64,000 nucleotides of DNA, taken from assembly GCA_029641185.1 (NCBI GenBank), contig JAPWGK010000011.1, positions 1,302,001-1,366,000 of the forward strand, in the 5' to 3' direction. The notes under the pieces are model-generated. The model was not told the origin of the DNA. It worked only from the letters and a program-made list of their open reading frames with translations, and did not search any database. Source of the DNA: Pseudofabraea citricarpa (taxonomy: Eukaryota; Ascomycota; Leotiomycetes; Helotiales; Dermateaceae). Shown in pieces: positions 6,066 through 64,000 of this stretch; positions within the stretch are counted from its first letter, which is position 1; each line of letters opens with the position of its first letter. Made by a program: the position numbers and the translations under genes.

Positions 6066-6459
6066 ATTTGCGTCTCAGTTGATGTTGAGATACAAAGTGT
6101 AGTTGGATTGTCGTGGGGTGTCGATGTGAGAGGTTTCGAGGAAAAGTTCAAATTGGGGACAATAATCTGTGGGTGGTGGGATCGCTAAACTAAACTAGCT
6201 CCATCATGTCTTATTGGTCGAACCTCCGACTAACTTATCGGTCACGTGAGAATGCCATAGCATCTCGATACACGTTTCATAGGTAGGTACGCATATTTCA
6301 CACGAGAAAGAGAATTTGTAATTGTCATCATAATTTCATTGTCTCAATCTAGCTGCCCTCACAAGTCGTTGAAAGCGCCAGCAAGATACCGCTGACGCAC
6401 CTCCACTTTGTGCGGCTGAACTGCTTTCCGCATCAATGAAATCAAGTAAGTCAATCAGG
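6066..6459. other. RPS4 upstream region / DCAF11-like 3' flank
   Basis: Compact 394-bp spacer that must contain the RPS4 promoter (reading leftwards) and the 3' end of the WD40 gene. No other gene is visible. It holds a CACGTG E-box and a TAGGTAGGTACG repeat near 6281. Confidence 0.6.
6243..6248. promoter_or_regulatory. CACGTG (E-box) in the RPS4 upstream region
   Basis: A perfect CACGTG palindrome sits about 180 bp upstream of the RPS4 ATG, within GGTCACGTGAG. Such sites bind bHLH factors of the Cbf1 type and occur in fungal ribosomal-protein promoters. Function here is inferred only from position. Confidence 0.35.
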
Positions 6460-8747
6460 TCAGTAGATGAATCTTCGATATAATGGCGCTCCTCGCCGGT
6501 GAGAGATGTGGTCGTCGCTCTCATCATATAAATGTGGATCGCGCTCTAGCTTCTGGTTGACTCTAAGTCCCATTTTGGGCTCTGCTTCGTCTTCTTCTGC
6601 GCCATCATTCCACGAATGGACAGTACATGTTCCGGTGGACATGCCGTAGCCACTCCAGGCAGATGCTATAATTCATCAGTATGCCTTGTTTAAAGTTGCA
6701 GATGATAATACATACCGACAACCACAGGCGCGTTGGGATGCCAGCTCGCGTCTCGAACACACGTCTTCCACTGAGTATAGCTTCCTTGATCTTCGTCGTA
6801 CTCTAACATAAAATCGCTTGCTGGCCTCGTGTTCTTGGTTGCTCCATATACATCGATTTTGCCTGCTAACGTAGCATCCATGTTCCAGACATAGACCTTG
6901 CCATCTTCGCTCCCAGAGTACACATATCTAGAATTAGTACTTCCTGGAGGCGAGAAATGGCAACGAATCAAAGTCCTCAACACACGGTGTCCTCGAAATG
7001 TAACTAAGGAATTATCGTGTCCATGCTTGTACCAGTCATCGTCATTATAGGAACCCCATCGGTAATCAAAGTGCGTTTCTGGTCTTCTGGTCGGCCTCAT
7101 GGTTGAAAAGGCCGAAGGTGACATGACCATACGTAGATCCCAAAGTTTCATGCTTTGGTCTTTGCCATTGCTCAAGATATAGCCTTTCGGCTGTTAGCAG
7201 TATTCGAGGAAGACAGCATCCTTGAGGACTCTGCTAAGAAGAAATAAAACTCACGTCCATCCCCTTTGCTGTCAATATAGGTTAGACCTTCAATGTGGCC
7301 AACAAAAGCGCCAGCCTCGCGGCTATCTCCCATACTTCTCGTATCCCAGACTTTCAGTGTCTTGTCATCCGAGCCGGAGTAGAGAATGTGAGGCGATGAA
7401 GAATCCGCAAAACAAACAGCGTTAACATCATCCTTATGCCCAAATATTCTGGTTGTCGGTGTACGAGACTCAATATCATAAACCACAATTGATCCCCCTG
7501 TAGCACCAGCAACCAGATTTCGTCCGTCACCAGAGAATCTGATAGACCATATACCAAAAGAACGGCCTCGTCTTGCATCTGCATGGTTGGGATTGCCACC
7601 TCTATCAGCAAGATCAAGAATATACGGCTCTCCAAGATCATTTGGGTCTGTAGGAGCAAGGCAAACTGTGCTCCGGATAGATGTGTATGCTAAATATTTG
7701 TTGTCGGGGCTTAAAGAAGCATCGGTCAGAGTCCACTGCCCAAAGGGGTACTCCACGGTCTTATAGTAACGCCACTGGTAGGGATTTGATGTATCGTACA
7801 TACGAACCTTGAAATCTTTGTTGGCAGAAAAGAAGAAATTGCCGTCGTCTGAGAATTGCCCCGAGTATACCGGCTGATTGTAATGAATTATCATGTCAGC
7901 ATTAGAGGATGGTATCATGCCCTGTTTTCATAAGTTAGAGTTGCAATACAAATTTGCAAATTACCGCACCTGCGCCATAAGCCTTCTGTTTACTTTCTGC
8001 CTAGCTTCTCCATACACAGCAAGCTCCCGATCAAGAATTCTTCGAGCCAACTTCTTCCTCCGGCTCATCCCAGTTGCAGATGTGCTATTTGCAGGGACTT
8101 CGTTCGATCCAAACGTCCCTGAATTCATGAGCTCCGTACCCTCGTCGCTAGGTACCTTAGGGAACCTGTCTGGGTCTGGTGTACTTCTTCTCCGCCTCCA
8201 GCTGTGACTTGTATACTGGTAGCCATCATCGTCATCATCGTCATTGGAATCATCAGCAGCGAGCTGGAATATTCTGCTAATATTGGGGTTTTGGAGAAGA
8301 CGCATAACTTGCGCTCGATTGCGAGCGACTGCAGAGCGGAAGATGAGCAAGATGATATGTACAAGTGTGAAGATTTGAAGCTCACTTCGCTCGGCATTTG
8401 CCTCCGTCCCGTCATTCTCGCCCTCCTCAATGCGGACCTCAAACTGTGCGTAGGGGTGTTCATAATCTAGTCAAAAAGCCCAATCAGCTGCGGAATCATT
8501 TAACGGGCCACCGCGTTTGCTACTCACCATCGTCTTCTCCATCAACCTCATCGTCGTCAGCATCCTCATGCTCAGCTTCGTATTGTGCTTCTATGAGACG
8601 CGCAAGGAAAGCCTCTTGCTCGGCATCATCGTCGTTGTCTTCCGAAGGAGGTTCATATTCCATGTCGTCGTCCTCAGATGTTCCAGCCATGTTGGAAATT
8701 TCATCAATATCGCCATTGGATATATTACCGGTTTCTTCCTGCGCCAT
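6460..8747 (-). CDS. WD40-repeat protein of the DCAF11/WDR23 (LEC14B) family
   Basis: Exons complement(8528..8747, 8386..8466, 7970..8328, 7255..7921, 6716..7183, 6460..6665); 666 aa with consistent phases. The N-terminus is strongly acidic (Asp/Glu runs within the first ~75 residues). The C-terminal two thirds carries WD40 repeats with clear GH..WD signatures: SDDKTLKVWDTR, SNGKDQSMKLWDLR, SGSEDGKVYVWNMD. This is the family of CUL4-DDB1 substrate receptors; the stretch IDSKGDGRYILSNGKDQ is diagnostic and spans intron 7184-7254, whose acceptor (..GAAAG) was chosen to restore it. The predicted role is a substrate adaptor of a CRL4-type ubiquitin ligase. The fungal target is unknown. Confidence 0.88.
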
Positions 8748-15586: not shown

Positions 15587-16250
15587 GTGTACTCTGCCTT
15601 TCCACGAACTTAGGTAGGTATAGCATGGGCTATAGTTCATCTTTCGCACACCACCACGGCTGTATCGATTACATGATGTAGGGGCGTCAAGGGCGTTGGG
15701 TTTTAAAAACAGTTAAGAGTTACCGAAATGGGTGAACATCCCTCTCTCTCTTCTTGCCTGTAGTTCTCTATTGTACAATATAGGCGCCTGCAGGGGTGAT
15801 AATTATGGATCGTTGTTTTGCATCTACTGGCCATCATGTCACAATTTACATACCACCAAGGCTGGTTTGATATTCAGAGAAGTGCGCCAGGGTACGGATG
15901 ATTCTGGATATATATCTTTCTCCTTGCGGAGAGGAGATAGCACAATGCCCAACTCTGAGCACTTGACCATGACTTGATCATGTTCTGTCACAAATTATGC
16001 CCTTGGGGTGCACATTTCATTCGTGTAGGTGCTTTCCTGAATCACGTTTGGCAAAGATGCTCCTGCCGGTTCGCCATGCAGTTGCCACCTCTTCTCTCTC
16101 CCTGTTTATCTACCTACTTAGGTAGTGTATTATGTCCTTCGAACCTATCACCACAAAACAAACATTCGAGCTTCGGTAGCTTTATGTATTCCTATTGCCC
16201 CAGATACATGAGCGATTGATGCTTTCGGTTCCAACCAACATTAGGATATC
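15587..16250. other. Intergenic region
   Basis: No supported gene. It contains TAGGTAGGTA (15,612-15,622) and CTACCTACTTAGGTAG (about 16,111-16,126) motifs. Confidence 0.5.
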
Positions 16251-19016
16251 ATGGCCTTAACACCTGCCATTGATGATAGCGAGCGCAGTAACTTCTATGC
16301 CCTTCTTGCTCTCTCGTTTTTTCTTCTAGGCCTCTGCGCTCTCTTTGCAGGCTTGACACTGGCTACTTGTAGTCTGGACATAACATGGCTTGAGATTACA
16401 TCTATCACCGCCAGGTCCAAACGGAGGTACAATAACTCTGACGAACACTGCCTCACTCGGGTACTGACATCGCATAGGGCTCAAGCGCGCGCAATACTGA
16501 ATATTAGACGCCATCATAGCTGGATGCTCTGTGGGTAGAAGTGGATTGACTGCTCAAGGAGGGAGTATACTTACGGGTTTCTAGGCTCCCTCGTCATTTG
16601 CTCAGTTGCCTGTGGTGAAGCATTCCCTATCACCATGAAAGAGATGTTGATAAATAAACCGCCGTGGTTAATTGTCTTGGTCTCAACTCTGTTCATCGCT
16701 ATATTTGGCGAAATTCTTCCTCAGACAATCATACCAAGAAAAGCATTGGCTTGGGCATATCGATTTAGACCAGTCATATGGTTTTGCATGGCGCTTACAA
16801 TATTCCTCAGCTATCCAATCAGCTGGTTGATCGATAGGCTCAACGGAAATTTCGAAGAGCATGCAGTTTTTAGCAATTCAGCCCTGGCCATTCTTATCAG
16901 CTTTCACACCAAGAGAGGCGGCCGTGGAGGAAAATTGAGGGAATCGACAGCTAAAATAATGATAGGTGCATTGGAGTTGGATCATTGCCGGATTGGAGGA
17001 GAATTTACGAGAATCCCCTACACGAACGACGAAGAAATGGCGATCGAAACGGACCTCGAGAAAGCTGAGGGTTTAAATACCCAGGCTATTTATACAAGGT
17101 GGTCGTCGGTACACACAGTCAACATTAATGATCGTGTTGATAGTACATTTTTGAAGAAGGTAACAAGCTGGAATTACAGTCGCATACCAGTGATTGGTGA
17201 TTGTCGCTCTGAAAGCGACAATTTAGATATGTCGAGCTCCAGTTGGGCCGGTAATAAGATCTTCGGATTTCTACATGTCAAGGTCAGTCATAATAAGCTT
17301 ATCCAACTTGTACACCATGTCATTGATGCAAAATAGAATCTCATTGGTATCGATATGAAGGACAAACCAGATCGACAAACTGGCTTACTTGTGAAAGACC
17401 TGTCGATATACCCGTTGCCAATTGTGCGAGATGATATGGAGGTCATAAAATTACTTAGCCAATTCCAGCTAGGCATGGCCAGGTGCGTGCATAGTCCAAC
17501 CCTTGGTTCTTGCTCTGATCTGGCTCAGAATGGCAATTGTAGTACATGCGGAAGAGAATGTGGCGTATGAAGAATACTGGGAAACTGATTTTCTAGAAGC
17601 AGCATTGAGGAGCACAAAACCTCTTCCACAGCGAGAGCGGATTTTCGGAATTAGATCACCACCACCAATTGGTCTCATAACGTATGATGATATTATTAGC
17701 AGGTGGGTGTCTTTTTATTATTTCCTGGCGATCTACTGCTAATAGCTGGGCTAACACATTGCAGGCTACTGCAGAAGAGAAGCTATGACGAGAAGGACTT
17801 CTTTGATCGTGGCTTGAATAACATGGTATCTACTAAACTCCAGGCCATGGCAGCTCAAGTGCACCCATCTGATGCAGAATATAAAAGAAAAGACTCAGGC
17901 AGTCCTGGGACTCCTAGTTATGGAGAAGACGCACATTCACCTCGTCGACGTCATCATCTTCATGTTGCACACAGTGGACCAAAAGAAATGTGCAAAGATG
18001 AACGTAATACCGACGCTGGTAATTCACGGCCAGTCGGGCTGCTAAGTGCAGAACATGCTCAAAGTTCTCTGCTTCCCAGTCAGAGGCATAATTCGGTGAA
18101 AGATGACGGCATAGATATGAGTCAGGAACGCGAGGAGCGTGAAGTCGGAGGACTAGATGGAACCCGTGAAGGGGCTATAGTCAAGTTGCGGCGGGGGAAT
18201 GAAGAAAGCTCCTATACCATGAACAGCCAGGGAGGCTTCCATGGCAGTAACAGCTCTGGGAAATCAATCGGCAACCATTTATTCTTCAGTACGGAGGATT
18301 TAGCAGAACTTGGAGAATATCCGACTCCCTTTCCACGAGACCGTGGACAATCCTCTTTAGGTTTGAGGATGGCTAGCATGCCGTCACGCCAGCCAATTTC
18401 AATTGTACCTCAGATAGGAAAGGCTCAGCGTCGAAGTACGAGTGGCATGCTTTCGCCCAAACTTCCAAATTTTCGACGGGTAACTCCCTTCTCTCGATAT
18501 ACTTACTCGAGTTACGAGAGGCAGAATGTCAACGAGCCAAAGAATTTCGACTTGAAGTTGCCTTTTGCTCCGCTTGTCATCCCAGAATTGCCAGGCGAAC
18601 TCCCACCTCCGAAGTACACGCTCAGAAACGATGAATTTGAAGTGCGCAACATGACCCAGCAGGATAAGTCGGAGGGAGATGCTACCAGGGATAGTGGTGA
18701 GATACTTTCTGTGACTTCGTGGGACTTTAGTGATTTTGAGGATGGTTCAGCTCATGTGGGAGACCATGGAGTAATTGCCAGTAGTTCTACGTACGAACTT
18801 GCAGTGGTGGTCCGTGAACCAGAGAATGCGGACCATTATGATCCTCAAATAGTACCACACAGGCATGTTAGCATAAACAGTGGAAACAGTGGTAGCTGTG
18901 TTCCTCAACGGGAGAAGAGCTTTCATGACGATCGAGCTTTGCTGCCTAGTCAGCGCAGAAGGTTACCACGCAGTGCTGAAATTGGTGGAGCGAGAAGCAT
19001 TAGCTTATGGTTTTAG
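16251..19016 (+). CDS. CNNM/DUF21-family membrane protein (Mam3-like), 832 aa
   Basis: Exons 16251..16426, 16478..16530, 16585..17282, 17337..17482, 17529..17702, 17765..19016; phases fit throughout. The N-terminal ~200 residues form a DUF21 (CNNM transmembrane) domain with about four helices: LALSFFLLGLCALFAGLTLA, then SLVICSVACGEAFPITM, then IVLVSTLFIAIFGEILPQ (the characteristic GEI.PQ motif), then IWFCMALTIFLSYPISW. A cytosolic region follows with LLVKDLSIYPLPIV and GLITYDDIIS, corresponding to the CBS-pair region though strongly diverged. The last ~420 residues are Ser-rich and disordered. CNNM proteins act in Mg2+ and divalent-cation homeostasis; yeast Mam3 also affects mitochondria. 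Family confident, substrate inferred. Confidence 0.85.
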
Positions 19017-45576: not shown

Positions 45577-48500
45577 ATGTCAGAAAGATCATGCCCCGTC
45601 TCTGCATCCGTGGGGTCAGCATGCCCTATGGGGAACAAAGGTGGCCGCGTAGGACCCAGAGGATGTAATTTTGCTAGCTTTTCCCAGCAAGGCGATTTGC
45701 AAACCGCTTTCGATGTATGCATAATCGATCTTGGGTCCATTCTAGATTTTTTTTTAATAGACACTAACGGTCCTAGATTCCTTCCGGTGTAGACCCCGTG
45801 CATTATCTTCGTCAAAGGTGTGCCAACTAGCCGACTTGATAGGAACAGACATGTACTAACACGTCTTAGGGAACGCAAAGCAATCAATGAGATGTTATAC
45901 TCTGATGTTCCTACGATGCCGAGTATCAAAGAGATGCAGAACTCCCAAGGCGTAAAGAGTTTAGACTCTCTGAACGCCAGCGAGCAAGACCTACTTGCAG
46001 TAGCACTTGGTGCCCCCGCACGCCAGGTACTTCTACGAGCAGAAGAGGTCGGCCCTCGAACCGGTTGGCGAGATGGTTATCTCAGTATGGAACATGGATT
46101 CTGTCCACCTGACGCCGATGTTGCTGCTGGAGCGTTAGCAAGGTCAGCGGGTCGGGTTTGGTCCGATCTTTGTGAACGTATGCCCGGGTGTGTGGCACGA
46201 GGTCGAGTCCGGGAGTCTGTGGCTGCGCTCCCTATAATTGAAGGAACGTCAGACGTCATTCCCGACAAGGCACTATGGGCAGCACTTGTTGCTCTGGGTA
46301 TGCTCTGTTCTATCTATAGATACGAGGACAAGCACAATGGGAGTGAAGGCATCAACGTAACTTCACGCACCTCATCAGCTCATGTAGAGATGAGCGATGA
46401 GCTTGGCGATGAAGTCAAGGGAATCCCAAAAAGCATCGGTCTTCCTTATTATCAAATCTCGAAAAGGATGGGCCGCTCAATCCCCCACTTGACATTTTTC
46501 GATCAATCTTCTTTCAATGTCAAGATCAAGGACCCAACATCAGTATATCCATACGTCGGTCGTTTCGATAATACTGATCTCAGATGGCCCATGTTTGGTG
46601 ACCGATCGGAGATAGCATTCCTTAAAGGTTGTGCAGATACATCAGGTAGGTCACACGTCCATGCGAGATAAGGATCAATTTTGATCACGGCTTACAATTA
46701 ATAGCGTCCTTTCAACACGGTGTCGATGCTATTGCAAGCTGCCAGGAGCACGTTATGAGCAGAAACAACGAGGCTTTGCTTCGTGAGCTCATTCGCCTAA
46801 AGGAAATTCTAGAGAGAATGCCTAACGCCTTCCATTCAATATCCCTCAATCCTAGCTCAGGTGAGAACTATGTATCGCCAGCAGAATGGGTCCGGTGGGC
46901 CAAGTTCTCAGCCCCTCTTTCAAAGCGTTGTCCTGCGACATCCGGGTTGCAATTTCCGCCATACCTAGTTATGGACGCTTTCCTAGGACGTACAAAGTAC
47001 GAATCCTTCCTTGGAGCGGAGGGCGTCCATTTACGGGCCTGGCTCCCTTCAAATTGGAGGGCTTTCATCGCTGCCATTGAATACCATTACCGTATTCCAG
47101 ACTACGTCTCCAAGTCTGGGGACCAGCGACTAATGGGAGCTTTGGACGGAATCGTGGAGGCATACACAGGCGAGCGAGGATTCATGGGAACTCACAGATA
47201 TAAAGTGTTTGGTCTACTTGAAGTTGCTGGGAAAACCGGTCGTGCAGAGACAAATGGAAACTCTGGATCTAGCAATTCTAATGTTAGGCCATGGGAAGAG
47301 ACGCACAAAGCCTTCTCGGACTCCATGAAAGAGAGACTTGAGCCATACCGCGGGAGCCTTCATGTTGAACCTCACCAGATGCGCGGGACATTCGCCGAAT
47401 GCCGGTACAAGTCAAGGGTCCTCAGCAGATCATTTGTGGACGCTGATGCAGAAAGATCAATTGCTAAGGTTATGCTAGATATTCAGGACACTGGTATCAC
47501 CTTTCAGCCTGGTGATCGTCTCGCCGTGATGCCCTTGAACAGCTGGGTGGAATGCGCGAAGGTCGCAGCTGCATTAGGGCTCGACACCATGCTCGAACAG
47601 CCAGTTGCTCCCGATAAGCAATGGACAAGGTTTGCTGAGCATTTGGGATCCGTATCGAATACATCGACCCCACGACTGACAGTCAAGGACATAATGCGTC
47701 GAGGACATCTCGCTCCACTTACTAAAGACCTTGTCATGAGACTTCATACAATGCTTAGAGCCTCGTCAAACATACTTCTTCAAGTCTTAGCAACAACTGA
47801 ATGGCCAGTACGCGCTTCCTTGGGTGACCTACTACAGGCTGCAGTTACCGATACAGCTCCTCATATCTGGGATCAGGCCTTTGATCTTTCAGGAAACCTC
47901 TCATGGTTATCCGATCTCATACCGATCGAGGTCCCGAGAACCTACAGCATCTCCAATTTTCCCGACGAGCTACTCCCCAGCACTGTGGACCTGACTGTCT
48001 CAAGATCTGACTATAATGTCTGTCCCACCCTTGCTGGCCAATCACCGGTCCTTCGGCATGGAGTGGGAAGCAGCTTTTTAAACCCGCCTGTATCCAGCCA
48101 AGAAGAGTTCATTGCGGACGATGAGGAGTTACTGGTTGGTGTCTCACGACCGTTGGCATTTCAACTGCCGATTGATGATGCGGCGCCGTGCGCATACTTT
48201 GCTGGCGGTAGTGGCATTGCGCCTTTTCGAAGTTTCTGGCAAGCAAGGGCTGGTCGTTCCATAGGCAAGAATATTCTCTTCCTTGGGGTACAGTCTAGAG
48301 ATAAGTTTTGCTATGAGACCGAGCTCCGAGAATACATCAACGCTGGCTATATGGAGGTCTATACTGCTTTCTCTCGAGATTCACATGGTCTTAGCTATGA
48401 TCGCTACCTGCGAGACCTAGTCGAGAAGGAGACTCCACCGCGGTATATTGACTCGGTAATTGTTGAACAAGGAGCTACGGTGTGTGATCTTGTTATGTCT

Positions 48501-50558
48501 AAAAAACAGGGAGGCTTAGGGGGCTATCTTTACGTCTGTGGGTCTCTGTCAGTGTTCGACTCCGTTATGTCTGGTATCCGAAGAGCCATATACAACCACC
48601 GGACAGCAAACATGGAGACTACTGACGTTATCCTGGACACTGCTTTCGCAGAACGACGCTTCATGTTGGATGTTTTCATGTCTCCTAAGCCACTGCCGTG
48701 CAATATTCCTACAATCCCTTTGTCACAATTGGCAACCAACACAGGGCATCATCCAAATAGTCGCATCTTCATCGCTGTTCATGGAAGTGTTTATGATGTC
48801 ACTGACTTCTGCCCCATGCATCCTGGTGGGACAAGCATTATCAAATCAAATGCAGGAGTGGACTGCACGAAGTCCTTTGACCTACTCGCTCACACCAACA
48901 ATCCCGAGGTTTCTAGTCTTTTAAACAAGTACTTCATAGGCCACCTCACGCCAAAGCCTGATTATCACCAGTGCGAGGAAATCAATATGCTGTATGATCT
49001 TTGGTCTGATTACCTAAGAACGTCGGTAGAGGCTCTTGTGTCGGAACAGTTTGAAGTACATGAATTTATGGGTTCGTCAAATCTCTGGTTCCAGGGCAGC
49101 CTCTTCAACATGGGCGGCGTGCGGAGATTTTATCATCATCAGTCAAGACTGCTTCAGAATGGCTTCTCGGCCCTGTTTGGGGCTAAACTTCAGGAGTTAT
49201 ACCTGAAATTGTCGTTCACTCTTGCGAATGCCGCTGTAGGCTCAAACGCCAGCCGCCTTCCTGATGTTTTGGGCATCATTGCAAGAGCAAAGAGTTCACC
49301 AGACGCAATGACGACGTCGAGCGAGGTATCACAGATTGGACAATTTACTTGTGATAGTGAAGCAGCACGATTCCACGAAAGAGGCATTCTGGAGTATGCG
49401 AAGAACTCTGTCCAACTAAATATGGAACTTTTAGAAGGCATTCGGGAGGAAGCGTGTCGTGGAATGGATGCATTTGACACGGTCATGGACCTGGATGCGC
49501 CATCCGAAACACAGCGTTTGACGGCACTTTCTACATTCTTGCTACAAGTTACTGAACGTATGGCCATTCGGTTGGAAGGATTCTACTCCAAATTGGCTCA
49601 GCATTCAGTCTACCATCCTGAGATGGAGCAAAATCCAGCGAGGACGAGATGGAATCTAGTGCGCCGCAAAGTTCGCGATGGTACCTTCTTTGTTTTGACA
49701 CAGGACATGGCAATCGGCACACAGCCTGCTCAGGAACCACACTGGGGCCAAGATGCAGTCGAGCTTGATCAGGTTATCACGCAGATTCAGAAAAGCATCA
49801 ATAAAGCTCCGGTCCTAGCACGACCTGCCATGGATCTTACCGAGCAGCATGTAGCTCGTGGACAAGTATCATCCAACAGTGTGTCTGCGTATGAATCGCA
49901 CGAGAACAGCCACGCCATCAAACGCATGTCTTCGTTCATGGCCAATAACATGCGTGCTATTCGACGACTTAGCAAGTTGCCACAGTCTGGGGTTAATCTA
50001 GAGCAGCTGATGAATACTTACCGTCCTCCAACACCCTTCCAAATGCAAAATCGTTTACCTACTCCTCCTCTCAGCCGTACTTCGAGCCGTTCACCATCAA
50101 CTTCCCGAGAGCCTGACAACTTCAATCCGTTACAGATGAACAATCTTAATGTTCGTGGGCGGTCTATGTCAACTTTCGATGAGCACATGGTCCCGCGTCA
50201 CCGCAGCAACACAGCATCTAGCAGTATGTCTGCGGGCCATTATCCCATGTCTCCAGCACGGACGCCATCACCTTCGGTATCAGGCTCTGCAACATTTCCA
50301 ATACCATCCGTGTCTTCTACCACGTTGCCCACGATTTTCAGTAAGATGAATAGACGACAGAAGCCTGGAGCGGTACCTCCCTCGCCGGTGAGCTTACCCG
50401 ACGACCAGAATAGACGAGGCAACCAACATGGCACCTACAGTTCGAGATCTTCGATGGCATCTAACAGTAGCAACAGTGCACATTTGCGCGCGCGATCGAT
50501 GACTGGATCTCTTCGGGCGCTGAAGCTACCAGAAATGAGAGTAGCACCAACCTTTTAA
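45577..50558 (+). CDS. Large fusion: PrnB/IDO-like heme domain + CPR-type FAD/NAD(P)H reductase + cytochrome b5
   Basis: Exons 45577..45714, 45793..46645, 46705..50558; 1614 aa. The N-terminus (MSERSCPVSASVGSACPMG) has two Cys-Pro motifs. Residues ~50-520 (GPRTGWRDGYLSMEHGFCP, LPYYQISKRMG, HRYKVFGLLEVAGKTGRAETNG) resemble the PrnB/DUF1864 branch of the indoleamine-2,3-dioxygenase-like heme fold; this is the least certain part. Residues ~550-990 are a P450-reductase-type FAD domain (RTYSISNFP at ~742) and NAD(P)H domain (FAGGSGIAPFRSFWQAR at ~829, YVCGSLSVFDSVM). A cytochrome b5 domain follows (~1010-1078) with heme ligands in HPGG (~1036) and LLAHTNN (~1060). No flavodoxin domain. The tail (~1080-1614) is helical then Ser/Pro-rich. 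The first intron (45,715-45,792, 78 nt) removes an in-frame TAG; it has a GTATGC donor and a CTAAC branch site. The gene borders the AT-rich block. Confidence 0.8.
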
Positions 50559-50913
50559 ATAGAGATAATAAACAAATTATTAAGCTGATTGAATAATATG
50601 ATAGATTTCACCACTTGATGCCGTGTTATACTACTAATAATTTATCTTGTTTTTTATTTTACTTCTTAGAAGATATAACTTTAAAAAAAAAGTTATTAAA
50701 ATCTAGTAACTTTTATAAAACTAGAGAATAAAAACTCTTAAGAATATCTAAGACTTAATATATAAACTTTAAGTTATTTATCTTAGTCTTATATCCTAAG
50801 AAACTTCTAAGGCTAAGATAATAACTAAGAGAATTTTTAAGATAATAATTAAGATAATATTAATAAGATAATAAAAAGCTTTTAAAAAAGTATTAATTAT
50901 CTAAAATAAATAT

Positions 50914-51040
50914 AAAACTTATTTATATAAAACTTATTTATATAAAACTTATTTATATAAAACTTATTTATATAAAACTTATTTATATAAAACTTATTTA
51001 TATAAAACTTATTTATATAAAACTTATTTATATAAAATTT
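50914..51040. repeat. 15-bp minisatellite ATAAAACTTATTTAT, about 8 copies
   Basis: Perfect head-to-tail units, with the last one degenerate. Confidence 0.92.
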
Positions 51041-51470
51041 ATTTATTTAAATCTTATTATTATAATATATATTATTAGATATTATTATATTATAAAATTA
51101 TACTTTTATATAAACTTATATAATTTTAGGTTTTTTATAGCTTTAGAAATAAAAGTAATTAAGTTAGTTTTTCTTAACTTAATTATATAACTTTCTTAAA
51201 AAGAAAAAAATTTAATCTTATATAATTTTTTATAAAAATCTTAAATTAAAAATAAAAATCTTAATTAAAATTAATTTAATAAAATAATCTAAGATTTTAA
51301 TTATATATAAAAAAATTTAATTAAGTTTACTTAAATTATATAATATTAAATTTAATTATAAATTAATTAATTATAAATTAATATTAAAATATAATTAATA
51401 TTATTAATATAATATATAATATTAAATATACTAGAATTAAATAATTATATATATAATAAGATAATTATTC

Positions 51471-51716
51471 TTATATTTATAAACTAAAAATTACTAGGAA
51501 TAATATTATTTTATTTACTAAGTGAAAGATACTTTTAATAAGCGCTCTAGCGTATATTTAATATTATTAGTAATATATCTTATAATTATAATATATATTT
51601 TATAATATTATTTCGTATTAGTTAATTAATTATATTAAAGGAAGATTATATAATATTAGAACGATTATTACCCTAATAGTTAAATATCCCTCCGGGTCGG
51701 ACTTATATTCGCCCGC
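51471..51716. repeat. Outer direct repeat, left copy (LTR-like)
   Basis: About 245 bp matching 63,756-64,000 in the same orientation. Differences are mostly C/T and G/A. It ends in an unmutated GC-rich patch (TCCCTCCGGGTCGG). Confidence 0.8.
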
Positions 51717-51726
51717 GTCACGTGAC
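51717..51726. repeat. Palindrome GTCACGTGAC in the AT-rich block
   Basis: A rare surviving site with CpA/TpG, right after the left outer repeat. Confidence 0.7.
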
Positions 51727-51889
51727 TAGAATAACGTCGGCTCGTATATATTTTAATATAATTCTCTTTTTATAACTTATATATATATACAAATAATTAT
51801 ATTATATAAAAATAATTAATATATTTATTTGATTCGTATAAAATCGTTCTTATATATAATATAAATATAATAATATATAAGTAATAATA

Positions 51890-51894
<5 letters not shown>

Positions 51895-51939
<45 letters not shown>
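51895..51939. repeat. (TAA)n microsatellite, ~15 copies
   Basis: Uninterrupted trinucleotide run followed by poly-A. Confidence 0.92.
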
Positions 51940-53018
51940 TAAAAAAAAAAAAGATTTACTTAAAGTTTTCCTTAAAAAATTAGCTAAAAGTATTAATTAT
52001 ATATAATAGTTTTCTAATTATATTAAACGCGCTTAATATATTATATTTACTAATAAAAACTTATTAAATATACTTATACTTTTACTAATTATACTAAAAA
52101 GTAAAATATAAGATTATTATCTTTTAGTATTATTAGTACGCTTTTAATATTATTAATAACTTTTCTAGTTTATAGATATAAGTTATAAAAAATTAATATA
52201 TATATATTTTATTTAATATATTTTATTATATTAATTTTTATTTAATTATTTATTAAGTTTATTATATAAAATTTTTTAATATATTATATATTACTAGTAT
52301 TTATATATTAATTTTATATATCTAATAAGTTATAAGCTTAATCTTATAACTTATTATTATATAATTTATTAACTAATTTTAGAGTCTTATATATTAGATT
52401 ATATATATTCCTAAAATAAAATCTTAATATATTTTTATTTTTCTTTTTTACTAATATATTAAAACTTATAACTTATAACTTATAATTAATATTAAATATA
52501 TTATAAAATCTAAGATTAAATAATTTATTATATAAAGAACTAAGATAACTAAGGTAATTTACTTAATAATAAATATTATTCTTATATAAATATATTTTTT
52601 CTTATAATCTTTTACTTCTTTTAATTAAATAATATAAATTATATTTTTTATATTTTCTTAATTACTTAAATTATTTCTACTTTTATTATATAATAATTAT
52701 AAGCTTAGCTTATAATTAAAGCTTTCTAAAATTATATTTAAATTATAAGAAAGCTAAAAAATAATTATTCTTAAGTTTAAAATTTATTATTATTATTATA
52801 ACCTTTAAAATAAACTAATAAAAAGCTAAGAAAATCTTTTTAAAAGATTATAACTTATAGCTTAATTAATTCTTTTAATTTTATTATTAAGCTTATATAA
52901 AGCGTATCTAAAAGCTTATAAATCTAAATATTATAAATATAAAAAACGTAAATATTAATTCTCTTATATAAGTACTAATTATTAATAAATTTATTAATAA
53001 GAGAATTATTAGTATAAG

Positions 53019-53214
53019 TATCTTATAGTTATATATATATATATAAATAATATATATATAATTATAAATATATATTAATATTTAGTTAATTAATTAGTTA
53101 ATTTATCTATAAATATATTAATATATATATAATATATTATTTATACGAAATACTAAGACTTAACTAAATACTTATAACTTAAGAGATACGAATAAAAAGT
53201 ATATAATCCTTCTA
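53019..53214. repeat. LTR-like copy 1
   Basis: Shares the AACTTAAGAGATA and TATATAATCCT stretches with copies 2 and 3; preceded by ATAAG. Confidence 0.8.
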
Positions 53215-55845
53215 ATACTAGTAACTTTTCTCTTTTTTAAGGAATATTAAATTAAATCGTATCTTATATAAAGTAATATTATATAAGTATAATATTATAG
53301 ATAATTATTACTAAGAAAATATAAGTAACTAAGAAACTAAAAATAAATACTTATAAACGCTAAACTTATAAATATAAGAAATATAAATAAAAAAATACTT
53401 AATATAAGAAAATAATCTACTAAATAAATATAAGAAAAATATTATATAATATTAGTAAGCTACGTGCTAGGGTTCCGAAGGATAATTCTAGCTTAGGTAA
53501 ACTATTAATTTTATCTCTTAATAAATAAAGTAAATAATTATATAAATTAATATTTAATAGTTATAAATTACCTTAGAAGTTAAGTAAATTATTTTATACT
53601 AAGTAAATTACTACTTAAGTAACTACTTAGTCTTTCTACGATTATAAATACCTAAGAATTTTTTTACTTAACCTCTTTCTTTCTTTCCTATTAATAACTA
53701 AACTTTATTTCTTTCTTTTTTATATTTATAACTAATTATTTATCTTTTTTTTTTTTTTTCTTTTTTTCTAATTTTATATATATTACTTTTATATTATATA
53801 CTCTTACTTTTAGCGTATTTTAGGTTACTAACTTAGTCTTATAGAAAATATAATATTTAATTATAAAAAGGATTTTAATTTTCTTAATATAATTAATTAT
53901 AATAACTTTAAAGACTTTATCCTAGAAATATAAGATTATACGTTTAATACGTATAATAGAAAAGTAATACGAGTTTATCTCTAGTACTCTTAGTTATTTA
54001 TTATTTATTATTCTATTATTATTTGTTATTTAGCTAAATTTAATTGCGCTTTCTAGTAATAATACTTCTAAAATATTTTATATAAAGTTATTTTTCTTAC
54101 TAAGACTAAAAGATATAATCTAGCTAATATATATATTAATTAAACTTATCCTTAGTATATTCTTAGTCTTTTAGTTTAATCTTAATAAAAAGTAGATTAT
54201 TTTATAATAAACTAATAATATATTATATATATTCCTAGTAATTATTATAAGCCTTACTTTTTATTTTACTTTATATATAAACTTAAGATTAATAATAGAA
54301 TATATAATAGATATCTAATAAGCTAATCTAGTAATTATTATAAGTATTATAAGTTTATTTCTAAATAATCCTTTTATATTTTATAATTAATTAACTTTAG
54401 GTAATAGTTTCTTTCTTATTAGATTTATTATTATAATTATCTTATAGCTATATATATATATAAATAATATATATATAATTATAAATATATATTAATACTT
54501 AGTTAATTAATTAGTTAATTTATCTATAAATATATTAATATATATATAATATATTATTCGTACGAAATACTAAGACTTAATCGAATACTTATAACTTAAG
54601 AGATATAAGTAGAAAGTATATAATCCTTCTAATACTAGTAATTCTTTCTTTTTTAAGGAATATCAAATTAGATTATATCTTATATAAAATAATATTATAC
54701 GAGTATAATATTATAGATAATTATTACTAAGAAAATACAAGTAACTAAGAAACTAAAGATAAATATTTATAAATATTAAACTTATAAATATAAGAAATAT
54801 AAATAAGAAAATACCTAATATAAGAAAATAATCTACTAAATAAATATAAGAAAAATATCGTACGATATTAGTAAGCTATATACTAGGGTTCTAGAGAGTA
54901 ATTCTAGCTTAGGTAGACTATTAACTTTATCTCTTAATAGATAAAGCGAATAATTATATAAATTAATATTTAGTAATTATAAATTACCTTAAAAGTTAAA
55001 TAAATTATTTTATACTAAGTAAATTACTACTTAAGTAATTATCTAGCTACTTTATAATTATAAATACCTAGGAATTTTTTACTTAACTTTCTTCTTTCTT
55101 TCCTATTAATAACTAAATTTTATTTCTTTCTTTTTTATATTTATAACTAATTATTTATTTCTCTTCTTTTTTTTCTCTCTTTTTAACTTCGTATATATTA
55201 CTTTTATATTATATACTTTTACCTTTAGTATATTTTAGGTTATTAACTTAGTTTTATAAAAAATATAATATTTAACTATAAAAAGAATTATAACCTTCTT
55301 AATATAATTAATTATAATAACTTTAATAACTTTATTCTAGAAGCGTAAGATTATACGTTTAATATATATAATAAAAGAATAATATAAGTTTATTCCTAGT
55401 ACTTTTAGCTACTTATTATTTATTATATTATTATTATTTATTATTTAGCTAAATCTAATCGTCCCTTTTAGTAATATTACTTCTAAGGATAATCGTACGA
55501 AGCTATTATTCTTATTATAGCTAAAAGATATAATCTACTTAGTACGTACGTTAATTAAACTTATCCTTAATATATTTTTAGTTTTCTAGTTTAATTCTTA
55601 GAAAAAGTAAATTATTTATAATTAGATTAATAATATATTATATATATTCCTAGTAATTATTATAAGTCCTACTTTTTATCTTATTATACGTACGAACTTA
55701 AGATTAATAGTAGAATATATAAAAGATATCTAGTAAGCTAATTTAATTAATATTATAAGTATTATAAGTTTATTTCCTAAATAACCTTTTTATATTTTAT
55801 AATTAATTAACTTTAAGTAGTAGTTTCTTTCTTATTAGGCTTATA
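53215..55845. repeat. 1.2-kb segment repeated after LTR copies 1 and 2
   Basis: The segment after copy 1 (to ~54,425) and after copy 2 (to ~55,845) match block by block, for example GGGTTC..AATTCTAGCTTAGGTA and TAATAGTTTCTTTCTTATTAG. Differences are mainly transitions. Confidence 0.85.
54438..54631. repeat. LTR-like copy 2 (internal)
   Basis: Same order of blocks as copy 1. The downstream ~1.2 kb repeats the DNA after copy 1. Confidence 0.8.
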
Positions 55846-58800
55846 AGATATAATAAATCTATATAATATTCCTTATTAAGATCTCTCTAGTAAATATTAT
55901 CCTAGTACTTATAAATACTCTAGTCTTACTCCTCTTATTATTATTATATAAGTAGAGATTATAGCTACCTAATAATATATATATTAAAAGACTTATTATA
56001 TTACCCTTACTTAGTTAATTACTAAAAAAAATAATTCTTTATATAACTTGATTTATACGCGCTCTAGTAATAGGAATACTATTAATTTTATAAATACTTA
56101 GATTAATTTAAAGAATAATAATAATAATAATTATTAATCTAATAATTCTAGTAATAATAATAATAATAATAATCCTAGTTACGCTTTAGATAGCTCTTAT
56201 AATAATACTAGTAGTAATAATAAAAGTAATAATAAGACTAATACTAGTATAAATAATAATAATAATATTATTTCGCCTTAGTTCTTTTTCCTTTTACCTA
56301 GCTTTTTATTTTTATACGAAAAATAATATTTATTTACTTTTCCTAATTTTAAATAACTAAATATTTAAATAAGTAACTAAAAAATAAACGAAAATAAATT
56401 CTAAAAATAAAATTAATATAATAATATATAAAAATTCTTATCCTTTAATTATTTTTCTTTTCTTTTAATTTACCTATTAATTTATATAAAGATCTTATTA
56501 TTATTAAGAAACTTTTTAAGGGTATTATTAGCTTTCTTCTTTATTATAATATTAACTAAATTATTAAGTTTATTTATCTAATAAACTTTTATAAGCTTTT
56601 TTCTCTTATATAATTAATATAATATTATAATATTAATTATTAGGTACTTCTTCTTAGTAATTCTAAGTTTTATAAGATATTCGTATAATAAATACGGATT
56701 AATATATATAATTATAAGTCTTAGTAAAAGGTTTAATTATAATATTATTTTATTAATTATACTATTAATAATAATAATAATATTAACTTTTATTATTATA
56801 TTATAGATTTCTAATACGAGTATACTTCTTATAACTCTCTTACTTTTTATATTACTCTAGTAAATTATATTTCTTCTAAGAATAAACTTATTCGGTTTAT
56901 ATATAAATAAAAGAGTTATCGAATCTTATTTTATTATTATTTAGGATTCGGTTACTAGTAAAATAATAAACCTAAGTTAAGAACTTAGGTTCTTATTATT
57001 TATAAATAACTTATTTATAAATATAAATAACTTTATATAAGATAAGTTAAAAGAAATATAATAAATCTCTTAATCTAAGTTACTTATCTATTATTTTAAA
57101 TAAGCGTTTAACTTTATAATTTTTATAAGAATTAGCTTTTAATATTAAGTAATAATAAAAAGATCGAAAATAACTTTAGGTTAATAAATACTTATTATAT
57201 ATATATCTTAGATATATTATTATTAGTAATCCTCTTAACTAGAAGGTAAATCTAAGTTAATAAGTTATATCTTTTTATTTTATTTCTTTTAAAGTAATAA
57301 TAAGGAATTATTATAATTTTATTAGAAGATATATCTATTAAATATTAGAGATATTTCGTATATAAGTATTTCTAATAGTTTTACTAAGAAGTTAGCTTTT
57401 TTTAGCTTTCTTTCTTTTTAGTTAATAAATATATTATTACCTAAGATTAATATATTATTAATTTATATACTTATAATTCTAAAAGCTTTAGAGTTAAAAA
57501 TAAGTAAGTATAAATTATATATAAATATTTATATCTATAATTAATTAATATAATACTTATAATATATTACTTATTAATATATATTTATCTCTAGAATATT
57601 ATATAATAGCTTTCTTATTATTATAATTATATCTTTTAGGTATTAGTATTAGATCTCTTTTAGTAGATATATAAGGATCTAATAAGCTAAATCTATAATA
57701 AACTAAATATATACTTAGGTAATATTATAGTAATAAAAAGTATATTTATACGAATTAAGTAAGATAATAAGAGTAATAAATAAGTATTAGCTTACTCTTT
57801 AAATTATTAGTAACTAAGTTAATACGAATTATTTTCTTATATTATTATAAGCTTAAATAATATAATAGATCTTTTTATATAAAGTTATTATTTTCTTTTC
57901 TTTTATTTTATATATTAATCAGAAGTTAAAAATCCTTCTTTTATATTATTATAAATTAAATCTAATAAATTCGAAAATATTATTTATAATTAATCTTTTA
58001 ACTTTCTTCCTAGTAAATTCCTTAAATAATTACCTAGGTATTATAATAATACTTAATTCCTAAAATTATCTTAAAAGCTTAAGGTTATTAATCTTCTTAT
58101 AAGTTAGATATACTAATAATATTATTTATCTTATATTACTTATATTTCGTATAAGCTAGGATAACTTATTAGAGGAATATTATATATAAGAAAATAAAAA
58201 TTAAATTATAAAGTTCTTATTAGACTTCTTATTATTATAAGAAATTCCTTTATTAAAGAAACGAATTAATTTTTGTAATAATATAATTATTAATATAAAT
58301 CTTAGTTATATAAGTATTATATAAATTTACTTAGTCTAGATAATATCTTCTAGTACTTATAACTTTATCTTCTAGTTATTTTCTACTCTTAATATAAGCC
58401 TTATAAGATCTTTATAATTAACTTAGGGCTAGCCGTTTTATAGCTTCGAGTTAAAAGGTTTTATAATAATTAAGTAAAAATTTATTAGGCTATAAGATAT
58501 ATTAATAATATAAGTCTTACTTATAATATTAATTAACTTATATAATCTTTTCTAATTTTATTTCTCTCTTTATATTAGGATATCTAATTATAATAATAAT
58601 AATATTACTAAGTTTATACGAGGGTTATTTTATATAACTAATACTTTTTTAATTAACTACTAGGTATAAAAGCGTCTAACTTCTTATATTATTAGATTTA
58701 TTATCTTCTTATATTTTATTATAAATATAACTAGGTATTATCCTAGCTTATTCTTAGGTAGATACTAAAAACAAGTAATATAAGTACTAGTTTATTAGGT

Positions 58801-60518
58801 TTTATAAAATTATTAATAGCTTTTATAGCTATTTAAAGAATAATATTCTTATTAATATATTCGTCTTTTAATTTTATATAAAGTATTTCGTATATATATT
58901 ATAAAGATATATAATATCTTTTTATTTTCCTAATATTATTATAAGCTTTTATAAGAACTTCCTTAGTCTCGGTTATTATTACTAATATATTTTATTAAAA
59001 CTTAGATACTATAAAATTTATATTAGTATTATATATAAAGAAATCTAGTAGACTAAGATATATATTAATTTATAGCGTACGAAGTATATTTTATATAGTT
59101 TTCGCTTTTATATCCTTTAGAAACTTTATTATATTAAACGATATTATTTTATTAATTATATATATTACTAGTTTTTTATCTAAATATATAATATTAATTA
59201 CTACTAAGTAGTTAAAATTTATATCTTTCTTAATAGTAAATTTAAATCGCCCTAGTAATTTAAAATAAATTTAATAATACTTATAAAATTTTATAAGATC
59301 CTTAAGTATTAGAATCTTAAAATCTTAATTTACTTTCTTAAGAATCTCTATTAATCTTTATATAAAAGAATATCTAAATCTATAATATACCTAATAAAGC
59401 TTAGATTTTATTAGATAATATAATATAATTACCTTTAGTTAGTTTAATAATATAAATAAATATTCTTATTTTCGTATTAAAAATATAATTTTCTTATCTT
59501 AAATAAAAATATTTTATAAGTTATTAATTTATATAAATATCTTATTTATATCTTATATATAAAATAAGAATAATATTAAGACTAATATAATATAAAATAT
59601 AATATTTCTAATTAATATCTTAAGATTAATAGTTCCTTTTATTATTAAGAGTTTCTTCCTAAAGTATATAATATTACTTTTATCGTTTATATATAATTAT
59701 AAGTTTAAGTATTATTATTATAATACTTAAAACTAAGGTTCTCTTATTATTAAGATCTCTAATACTCTTATATCTAGTATAATATCTTAGAATATCTCTA
59801 ATAAATATCTGCTTTTATTAATATACTTATTTATTTTATATATAACTAGCTCTCTTATTAATTTTATTTAAGGACTAGGAATATCTTATCTTATAAGAAG
59901 ATAATTTATTTTCTAGTTATCTAAGATTATCTTAATAAATTATATATTATTTTTAATAAAATCGATTAAGAAATATTTATATAAAAACTCTTCTTTCTTT
60001 ATCTTAGTTTAATATACCTAGGTATTACTAGAATATTTACTTTATTTATTATTCTTATAACCTAAATAAGTATCTTACTTATTATTCTTAAGTTATAAGT
60101 AAAAGTAATAGATATACTTAAATTATTATATCTTCTTATTAAAAGAGGATTTAATATTAAGATAATCCTTATACGAAATAAGTAATCCTTCGAAATTAAT
60201 TAAGAATTAGTTAAATTTATTATCTTAGATATATTAGTTTTAAGATTTATAATATATATATATCTTAGTTTATTCTTCGTTTATATAATTACTCGACTAA
60301 TACCCTAGCTTTTAGTATACGTAATATTTCTAGTTATTATTAAATTTTCTTTTATCTTTTTAATCTTCTTAGAAACTTTCTCTTTTTCTTAAATTAACTA
60401 AAATTTAATAGTTTATTATATTTTATACGACTTAGTAATATTAGTTCTAGTTATTATACTTTTAATTAATCTAATACTAGTCGTATTAGTAGTTATAATA
60501 GCTTATATATTATACGTA

Positions 60519-60781
<263 letters not shown>

Positions 60782-62387
60782 ATATCTCTTAGATATATAA
60801 TAATAATTAATTATATTATATAATAGTAATAATAATAGATCTTAATTCTAAGTAAAACCTTTAAAAGTCGAAGCTAGTTTATAAAGTATAAAATTATACT
60901 CTAGATATTATAATATATATTTAATACTTAGTCTTATAGGTTATACTTATTTTAGTATTAAACTAAAAGTTCTTATTATATTATATAAAGTATATTAAAT
61001 AAGATCTTAAGATATTTAAGTTTTAATTTATCTAGGTATTATTAGATAATTTCTTAGAATATAATCTTATATTACTCTAAGAAATATAATTACTTATTTT
61101 CTTTAGTTTTAAAGTAATCTTTTATTATTTATATTATTATATAAAATTATAATTCCGATAAATATCTTATTATAATAGAATTCGGATATTTTATCTTAAG
61201 TATTATAAAGAATACTAAATAATAGCTATAATCTAATATTTTTATTTTATTATAATAGTTAAAGAATACTTATATTTTTATATTAAAGATATTATATAAT
61301 TTACTTATATATTTTCTTTTATTTAATATATTATAGATTTTTATTAGCTTAGTAATTATCTTATTAACTAATAATATTCTAGGTTCCTAAACGTATTATT
61401 ATTATTATAAAGGACTTTGTATAAGATTATCTTAAGGTACGAAGTTATAAGAGATTATCTTTTAGACTAAAGACTTAAATTTAAGATACTAGTAAACCTT
61501 AGGTAAATACTAGGCTAAAGCGTATAAGAGTTAAAGTATTAGTCCGGATTATACTCTTTCTATTATATTATACGAGCTCAGTTTATACTAGGAAAAATAT
61601 ATATATCCTTAATTAATAGTCGAATATATTATTCTAGTATTATTATTAAGCTTATTATAAAGATATTATATAAAATACTTGTAGAAGTAACTAATATATT
61701 AGATTCTTTAGCTTATATATTAAATCGAACTTTCTTTGTATACTTTTATTTACTTTTTAATTTTATCTTTAGTTTATATATAAGATTTCTTCTCGTTTAG
61801 GAGGTTTACTAAAAGTTAAGTATAAGATATAAATCTTAATTTAAGTTTAGTAAATACTTTATATATATATAAGTATATACGAACTTTAGATATAATTACT
61901 CTTAATATTATATTAAATATTATTAATATTTATCCTTAAAATATATTCTTAAAATTATCTTATAGTTTATTATCTTTTATTTCTTATTCCTTTTATATAT
62001 TAATATTTACTATAATATACGTATTAATAAGTATATTAGTATATTTATTTATATTAGTTATATCGATTTTATTACTTTATTATTTAGGGTTAATAAGATA
62101 TTTTCTTTTTATTATAAAACTTATTATTACTTATAAGTTCTATAAAAGATTTTTTTTAGTCGAAATCGTATTATTTTATCTAGAGATAATATCTCTTATT
62201 TTATATTAGTTAAACTTATAAAGTATTCTTTTAGATTAATTAAATAAGCTATAATCTACCTTTAATAATTTTATTAAAAATCTTTATATATTAAGTCCTA
62301 AAAAACCTTATTAATCTATAATCTTATTTCGTATATAAGGTTATTATATAATAGTTAAGTTAAACTACTAATTAATATTAGTATAAT

Positions 62388-62581
62388 TATCTTATAATTA
62401 TATATATATATAAATAATATATATATAATTATAAATATATATTAATACTTAGTTAATTAATTAGTTAATTTATCTATAAATACGTTAACGTATATATAAT
62501 ATATTATCCGTACGAAGTACTAAGACTTAATCGAATACTTATAACTTAAGAGATATAAATAAAAAGTATATAATCCTCCTA
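62388..62581. repeat. LTR-like copy 3
   Basis: Same block; downstream sequence differs from that after copies 1 and 2, and starts with ATAAG. Confidence 0.8.
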
Positions 62582-63755
62582 ATAAGAATAATACTTAATT
62601 AATAATTATACTTAGATTAAATAATAATTAATAAGCTTTTTAGATTAAAGCTTAGCTTATTATAAGATATTATAATTATATATAATAATATATAATATAA
62701 GCTTAATACTTAATTAAAGATTTATATTATAAAATAAGCAAGCTAATTATATAATATAATTAAATATTATACTTTTAAGTAATAAATTAAATAAATAATT
62801 TCTTTTTTAATCTTAACTTTAATTAATATAATAATTAAAAAAAAAAAACTTAAGCTTATAAATAATTATTCGATTATTAAAGTTATAACTTATATTTATT
62901 AATAATAATATATTAATTATTATTTACTAAAAGTATAATATTATACTTAAGTAAATAAAAAATAATAATATAAATCTTATATAATAATATTAGAAATAAC
63001 TTAAAGTATTTTAATAAGCTTAAATATATAATATACTAGAGATATAAGACTTACTTATAATTAAAAAGTTTCTTATAATAATATTTATAAAAATAACTCT
63101 AGAATAAAAAAAACTTTAATTAATAGAATATATTAGAATAAATAAGCTTAAACTCCTAGGTAAAATACTTAAGTAATATAAAAATTAGTTTTTCGTATTA
63201 ATATATAAAAATTTAATTTAATTTATAACTAAGAGAATAATAATTTTTATTATTCTTAGAAGAAAATTAAATAATACTAAAAACTAATATATTAGCTTAA
63301 TTTAATAAAAGTAAAAGTAATTTTATTTTTACTAAGATAAAAGAAATAAAAAGTATTTCTAGAAACTTTTAATATATTTATTTCTTAAGTATACTCTTAT
63401 AAAAAGCTTAAAGAAAAATCTTAGAAATTTCTTTTCTAAAAAAAAATATTATATAATCTAAGATTATTTATAAAATAAAAACTAAGGTTTAATATATAAT
63501 AAGCTTATTAAGAAAGATTAAAAAACCTTAAATTTTAAAGATTTATCTTAAAAAAAGAAAAAATCTTTTAGAAATTTTATTAATAAATACTTAAAGCTTA
63601 TAAATATAATAATCTTAGACCTAAAGCTTATAATCTAATAACTAAATATAAGTATTTATATAATTATAGATTTTTTAAGTTATTTATTATCTAATAATAT
63701 ACTTATTAATAATTATAAAGTTACTTACTTAGTAAATAATAAGAAACTTTTAGTT

Positions 63756-64000
63756 TTATATTTATAAACTAAGAATTACTAGGAATAATATTATTTTACT
63801 TACTAAGCGAAAGATACGTTTAGCAGGCGCTTTAGCGTACGTTTAATACTATTAGTAGTATACCTTATAATTATAACACGCGTTTCGTAATATTATTTTA
63901 TATCAATTAGCTAACCGTACTAAAGGGAGGTTACGTAATATTAGAGTAACTATTACCCGACAGTCGAATATCCCTCCGGGTCGGACTTATATTAGCCCGC
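63756..64000. repeat. Outer direct repeat, right copy (cut by window end)
   Basis: Matches 51,471-51,716 and keeps more C and G (ACACGCGTTTCG, AAGGGAGGTTACG), so it looks less mutated than the left copy. Confidence 0.8.

Follow-up and report, generated by a model that had tools for sequence, protein, structure and literature searches.

The window analysed here, a 64,000-nucleotide stretch of Pseudofabraea citricarpa DNA (contig JAPWGK010000011.1, positions 1,302,001 to 1,366,000; source genome of 44 Mb in 43 contigs), carries on its forward strand a gene whose product joins, in one chain of 1602 amino acids, a heme domain of predicted indoleamine 2,3-dioxygenase (IDO) fold, an FAD- and NADPH-binding module of the cytochrome P450 reductase (CPR)/CysJ type and a cytochrome b5 domain. 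The ATG lies at 45577 and the stop codon ends at 50558, the bounds given by an earlier reading of the DNA from its letters alone (the sequence-only reading). That reading had put the entire protein in one frame, which holds for exon 4, contained in a frame that stays open for 1302 codons, but not for the gene as a whole, which appears to be divided into four exons by three short introns, all GT..AG and placed by comparison with homologues. Intron 2 was accepted because the homologues lack 12 residues of the unspliced version and agree with the re-spliced sequence. Pfam scans, homologue searches and the tree were run with a 1614-residue version or a piece of it, which carries 12 extra residues near the N-terminus, ahead of the first Pfam match; its numbering minus 12 gives that of the 1602-residue protein. 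The features are as follows.

45577..45714, + strand: exon 1, encoding an N-terminal extension in which CP motifs occur (SCPVS..CPMG..GPRGC), from homologue alignment
45715-45776, + strand: predicted intron 1, GT..AG, from homologue comparison
45777..45817, + strand: exon 2, 41 nucleotides, IPSGVDPVHYLRQ, from positional agreement with homologues
45818-45869, + strand: predicted intron 2, GT..AG, from homologue comparison
45870..46645, + strand: exon 3, encoding the N-terminal half of the IDO domain, from homologue alignment and Pfam
45967..47288, + strand: predicted IDO-fold heme domain, about residues 93-513, spanning the intron at 46646-46704 (Pfam PF01231; fold of homologue P0121)
46646-46704, + strand: predicted intron 3, GT..AG, from homologue comparison; interrupts the IDO domain
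46705..50558, + strand: exon 4, encoding the remaining half of the IDO domain and then the reductase, b5, the C-terminal domain and the tail up to the stop, within the 1302-codon open frame
46848..46904, + strand: NPSSGENYVSPAEWVRWAK, where canonical IDOs have NP..FY..IRPFL (IDO1 Arg231 region), from alignment
47193..47195, + strand: His482, predicted proximal heme ligand in GTHRYKVFG, invariant in 62/62 aligned members
47391..48677, + strand: CPR/CysJ-type FAD and NADPH module with RTYSIS, GGSGIAPF, YVCGS and FMLDVF (Pfam PF00667, PF00175; fold of homologue P0174)
48747..48947, + strand: cytochrome b5 domain with axial His1024 (48819-48821, in HPGG) and His1048 (48891-48893) (Pfam PF00173; both His in 62/62)
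48966..49838, + strand: C-terminal domain that matches no Pfam family and weakly resembles the helical C-terminal portion of the bacterial members
49956..49976, + strand: AIRRLSK motif (RR[LYF]S) in the Ser/Pro-rich tail, from homologue comparison

Behind the N-terminal extension the protein matches, in this order and each time above the curated cut-off, the Pfam families IDO (E = 1.3e-12; 47.7 bits, cut-off 26), FAD_binding_1 (4.6e-9), NAD_binding_1 (4.4e-7) and Cyt-b5 (7.1e-16; 58.4 bits), which are followed by a further domain and the Ser/Pro-rich tail. The CPR-type module that the sequence-only reading had recognized by RTYSIS and GGSGIAPF (starting at residues 730 and 819) is thereby confirmed, as is its b5 heme pocket of HPGG plus a distal His. 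Its suggestion that b5 takes the place of FMN agrees with the lack of any Pfam match to an FMN/flavodoxin domain at E <= 1 in the 1614-residue version. At the same threshold no NOS (nitric oxide synthase) oxygenase domain was matched, and the C-terminal domain of the window protein matched no Pfam family even at E <= 10, its best PDB profile match having an E-value of 0.027.

A search with the window protein retrieved 318 proteins at E <= 0.001 from 8000 scored candidates, and since so many proteins match, a chance origin of the architecture is excluded. All four domains are present in 111 of the 120 matches listed, whose named organisms are all fungi and the closest of which is a protein of Phlyctema vagabunda (P0001, 89% identity); the exceptions are seven proteins of 1260-1283 amino acids that set in where the last exon begins and have no IDO call, one without a b5 call (P0059) and one without a NAD call (P0092). 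A further search added a partial protein of Rhizoctonia solani (P0162) and a distant metagenome protein of 1141 amino acids (P0174, 29% identity). The latter in turn retrieved 442 proteins. IDO, FAD, NAD and b5 domains are present in each of the 120 listed, among them P0174 itself, and 48 have an FHA domain in addition. Nine of these have organism names, all of metagenome-assembled genomes: one is from Acidimicrobiales and eight are from Chloroflexi or groups that we place within it (Anaerolineae, Anaerolineales, Anaerolineaceae, Herpetosiphonaceae and Promineifilaceae). A scan of genome contigs found two loci, in Anaerolineae and Fimbriimonas. The fusion occurs in 3 of 301 genomes of the phylum of the Anaerolineae locus, in 5/346 of its class and in 5/56 and 1/19 of two orders, and in 2 of 151 genomes of the phylum of the Fimbriimonas locus, counts that come from overlapping genome sets and a loose search with some partial matches; occurrence in bacteria thus seems patchy. 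The IDO-reductase-b5 fusion, which the sequence-only reading had proposed to look for across fungi, is real, widespread in that kingdom and present also in some bacteria.

A tree of 45 rows, made by a quick search with SH-aLRT support only, places the fungal (17 rows, support 100) and bacterial (27 rows, support 98) members on separate branches; owing to the great length of the outgroup branch (4.13), it fixes neither the root nor the direction of any transfer. The FHA-bearing form requires two changes on this tree. Colletotrichum appears in two sub-clades (P0011 versus P0113 and P0117), which suggests that some Sordariomycetes carry two copies.

The heme domain has the IDO fold, as modelled on homologues of the window protein: the 50 Foldseek matches listed for the model of a fungal homologue are all IDO1 or IDO2. 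PrnB (DUF1864), to which the sequence-only reading had likened this domain, was rejected, as the Pfam scan gave no match to it at E <= 1; the Foldseek evidence on this point covers the 50 matches listed, leaving room for families outside them. Six bacterial members match PF01231 at 96-124 bits, and the bacterial proteins bridge the fungal domain to canonical IDOs (probability 99.3). An alignment of 62 rows (17 fungal proteins, P0174 and 44 of its relatives; P0174 numbering is used for the conserved residues below) shows that the proximal His, flanked by H-R-x-K and K-x-G-R, is kept in every row, as are the Glu and Phe of an E..F motif, the Phe standing at the place of IDO1 F163, and Gln-Glu 200-201 and Asn236. 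Here we take the IDO1 residues to be H346 as proximal His, F163, Ser167 and R231 as binder of the tryptophan carboxylate. Outside the alignment the H..K..G motif of the His is found in all 120 proteins listed in the P0174 search, 112 by a strict pattern and eight by a looser form. Of the 120 fungal matches listed 117 have it, 116 by the strict pattern and P0018 by the looser form, while P0050, P0083 and P0089 matched neither.

Conservation extends to the electron-supplying half. Arg575, Ser578 and Cys775 of the reductase are invariant in the 62 rows, Tyr577 is replaced by Phe in two, and the module closes with an aromatic residue (Phe in 56, Tyr in 6) which we take to be the FAD shield. The axial His pair of b5 is kept in all 62; HPGG is present in 119 of the 120 fungal matches listed and H[PA]GG in 118 of the 120 listed in the P0174 search. 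Among the same fungal matches RR[LYF]S occurs somewhere in the protein in 118/120, that of the tail being presumably a PKA-like (protein kinase A) site, and CP[VIAT]S lies within the first 40 residues in 64/120; the corresponding CP motif of the window protein (45589-45603) seems to us reminiscent of heme-regulatory motifs.

We inspected 11 bacterial loci, in four of which (L025, L031, L032, L038) the fusion reaches or nears the contig end. In each of the seven that show the upstream side (L015, L016, L023, L024, L030, L036, L037) the next long open reading frame (ORF) upstream, on the same strand, encodes a CBS-pair protein (at L015, 6733-7254), called by Pfam CBS at 74-85 bits in the five scanned and in all seven by a custom profile built from two; L030 and L036 are closely related, so that the seven are not fully independent. 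CBS domains often bind adenine nucleotides. The front part of the L030 CBS protein is REC-like at 17.4 bits, below the cut-off of 30.2, and FHA is above its cut-off in L015 and L037. In L024 the fusion adjoins a protein of 1829 amino acids (3182-8671) with kinase, AAA, GAF and adenylate-cyclase parts. In L015 (5770-17271) a PIG-L/cNMP-binding (cyclic nucleotide-binding) protein comes after the fusion, and the bacillithiol synthesis proteins BshA and BshB1, each over its NCBIfam cut-off, are encoded nearby; the gene at 16144-17268 has no family match. Genes resembling the L015 surroundings, as judged by appearance, are also seen in L032.

In the fungal window, 10 of the 16 other ORFs of at least 200 amino acids were scanned and no typical core of a biosynthetic cluster was found among them, three being without a family match; this is in keeping with the sequence-only reading, which saw no obvious cluster. 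Just past the gene end begins a block of very low GC content (50600-64000, 13-24% per 2-kb step), which to us resembles the AT-rich isochores of some fungi. Elsewhere the source genome contains three apparently standalone IDO genes, the third of which (G000:C1:1283592-1284879; L012, L014) is divergent, with WRHWCFTREYI and ATGGSPIVTWLPNQL, and probably of the IDO-gamma type.

How would such a protein work? The single-chain design of a heme enzyme with its own reductase, as put forward by the sequence-only reading, is supported, and it could supply electrons within the chain. We consider it probable that the protein is a self-sufficient heme oxygenase of the IDO family, driven by NADPH through FAD and b5, whose substrate is a small molecule and not L-Trp bound in the conventional way. 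For the order of electron flow and the O2 chemistry we infer that NADPH would reduce the FAD of the CPR/CysJ-type module, that b5, replacing the FMN domain, would take single electrons from FAD and pass them on to the IDO heme in its ferric state, and that the reduced heme would then bind O2 and oxidize the substrate. The reductase may serve either to keep the heme ferrous, as for a dioxygenase, or to feed a two-electron monooxygenation. In bacteria, the adjacent CBS-pair protein would control the fusion. We expect a substrate of this kind in view of the changed Ser167 and Arg231 places and of the other IDOs in the genome. The protein may act on an indole- or tryptophan-like substrate, as the sequence-only reading proposed; the Phe at the F163 place is kept, but the altered residues speak against conventional binding of L-Trp. 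Conserved Lys and Arg residues next to the heme ligand might, speculatively, stand in for substrate binding.

Several observations weigh against this interpretation. Ser stands at the Ser167 place in none of the 62 rows (Pro 31, Gln 10, Ala 2 and Thr 2 in the bacterial group; Cys 13, Val 3 and Met 1 in fungi). Nor is the carboxylate Arg kept at the Arg231 place, around which the alignment may be off by one or two residues: at P0174 position 244 the 45 bacterial-type rows have D (25 rows) or N (20 rows) and the fungi mostly S, in segments that mostly read YV(N/D)PVVW(G/A)KT and NYVSP.EWVRWAK, respectively; an Arg occurs elsewhere within the 16-residue segment in 10/45 bacterial-type rows and four to five residues downstream in 15/17 fungal rows. 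A heme domain that lacks both residues could have lost oxygenase function. Moreover, a profile built from fungal IDO domains alone gives a poor sequence alignment with canonical IDOs (hhalign probability 4.8); the fungal link rests on Pfam, the fold and the bacterial bridge, and the Pfam IDO match spans only positions 8-211 of the 412 in the profile. Single members also deviate: L016 lacks K.GR, HK or HG replaces HR in some listed bacterial-type proteins, the b5 motif is HAGG in L016 and G242, P0188 and P0237 lack H[PA]GG (P0188 is in the alignment and keeps the His), and FAD_binding_1 is under its cut-off in three of six bacterial fusions scanned (L037, L016, L030).

The same residues bear on the competing explanations. 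An ordinary tryptophan dioxygenase with a built-in reductase for reactivating its heme, forming N-formylkynurenine by canonical IDO chemistry, would accord with the predicted IDO fold, with the Phe at the F163 place in all 62 rows and with the support of human IDO1 in vitro by CPR with or without b5, as described in a published account (PMC13142367). Yet the Ser167-place Ser is absent throughout and no Arg is conserved at the Arg231 place, within the alignment uncertainty given above, and the standalone IDO genes probably cover tryptophan breakdown, which makes this explanation distinctly unlikely. Loss of the substrate residues would equally suit an IDO domain that is a docking element or a relic, with the reductase-b5 part serving other heme or diiron enzymes; as the fold appears intact in the models and the proximal His, H-R-x-K and K-x-G-R persist in every aligned row (the exceptions lie outside the alignment), we regard this as highly improbable.

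A sensor or signalling enzyme for redox state, O2 or NO (nitric oxide), in which CBS, FHA or kinase partners read out the state of heme and flavin, is the explanation to which the bacterial loci lend weight, by the CBS-pair gene directly upstream in 7/7, the FHA domain in 48 of 120 proteins listed, the weak REC-like part of one CBS protein and the kinase/adenylate cyclase neighbour in L024; RRxS in 118 of 120 fungal proteins listed points the same way. However, the reductase residues and heme ligand show in all 62 rows the conservation of a functioning enzyme, the partners could simply be its regulators, and two of the seven loci are close kin. We hold it to be rather unlikely as an alternative, one that would overlap with the oxygenase should the protein also convert a substrate. 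NOS activity is suggested by some record names (P0037 is 'related to nitric-oxide synthase') and by NOS reductases among the family-profile matches, but the heme domain is that of IDO and no NOS oxygenase match was found. In addition, Neurospora crassa NCU05185 and NCU05006, called NOS-like, match Magnaporthe oryzae NOL2 and NOL3 at E = 0 (PMC4948021), and we infer that all four are candidate members of the fusion family. Deletion of the two N. crassa genes reportedly left NO, growth and conidiation unchanged (PMC4948021, repeated in PMC10607626) and the NOL2 and NOL3 mutants did not account for NO (PMC4778047), which, if they are members, also speaks against NOS. We regard NOS as exceedingly improbable. 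Two other papers name NCU05185 an NADPH-P450 reductase (PMC6468284) and list NCU05006 next to a predicted polyketide synthase cluster (PMC9239088).

The self-sufficient oxygenase that we favour differs from IDO1, IDO2 and the fungal IDO alpha, beta and gamma proteins (PF01231) in its fused reductase and b5 and in its altered Ser167 and Arg231 places; no reductase or b5 domain is apparent in IDOs of solved structure or in the genome's three other IDO genes. With CPR and CysJ it shares FAD_binding_1, NAD_binding_1, the Arg/Ser and Cys motifs and the aromatic residue at the module end, whereas it has b5, downstream of the NADPH module, instead of a flavodoxin domain. The self-sufficient heme-plus-reductase design recalls P450-BM3 (CYP102) and NOS, which combine a Cys-ligated heme with FMN, in contrast to the IDO-type His-ligated heme and b5 of the fusion. 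Another close counterpart is human IDO1 reconstituted with CPR and b5, the same three kinds of parts in trans that the fusion unites naturally in one chain; the role of such systems in vivo is called unclear (PMC13142367). Among the titles and abstract openings listed in a literature search, none describes an IDO-reductase-b5 fusion, which is apparently undescribed.

How cells keep the IDO heme reduced is unsettled, and the natural joining of an IDO with the NADPH/FAD half of CPR and with b5 argues that a CPR/b5 route is real; the fusion offers a tool with which CPR/b5-type reduction of the IDO heme could be measured. It would also provide a better name for proteins now recorded as sulfite reductase, NADPH-hemoprotein reductase or NOS-related. 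Our broadest proposal, which we put forward tentatively and at somewhat less than an even chance, is that these proteins form a new class of IDO-superfamily oxygenases in bacteria and fungi, with NADPH-FAD-b5 electron supply in one chain and a chemistry other than opening of the tryptophan ring, which in bacteria would belong to a signal-gated operon under a regulator of the CBS-pair kind, with input from FHA domains or kinases. If the interpretation is true, the family would represent a self-sufficient oxygenase whose core is an IDO heme with a His ligand.
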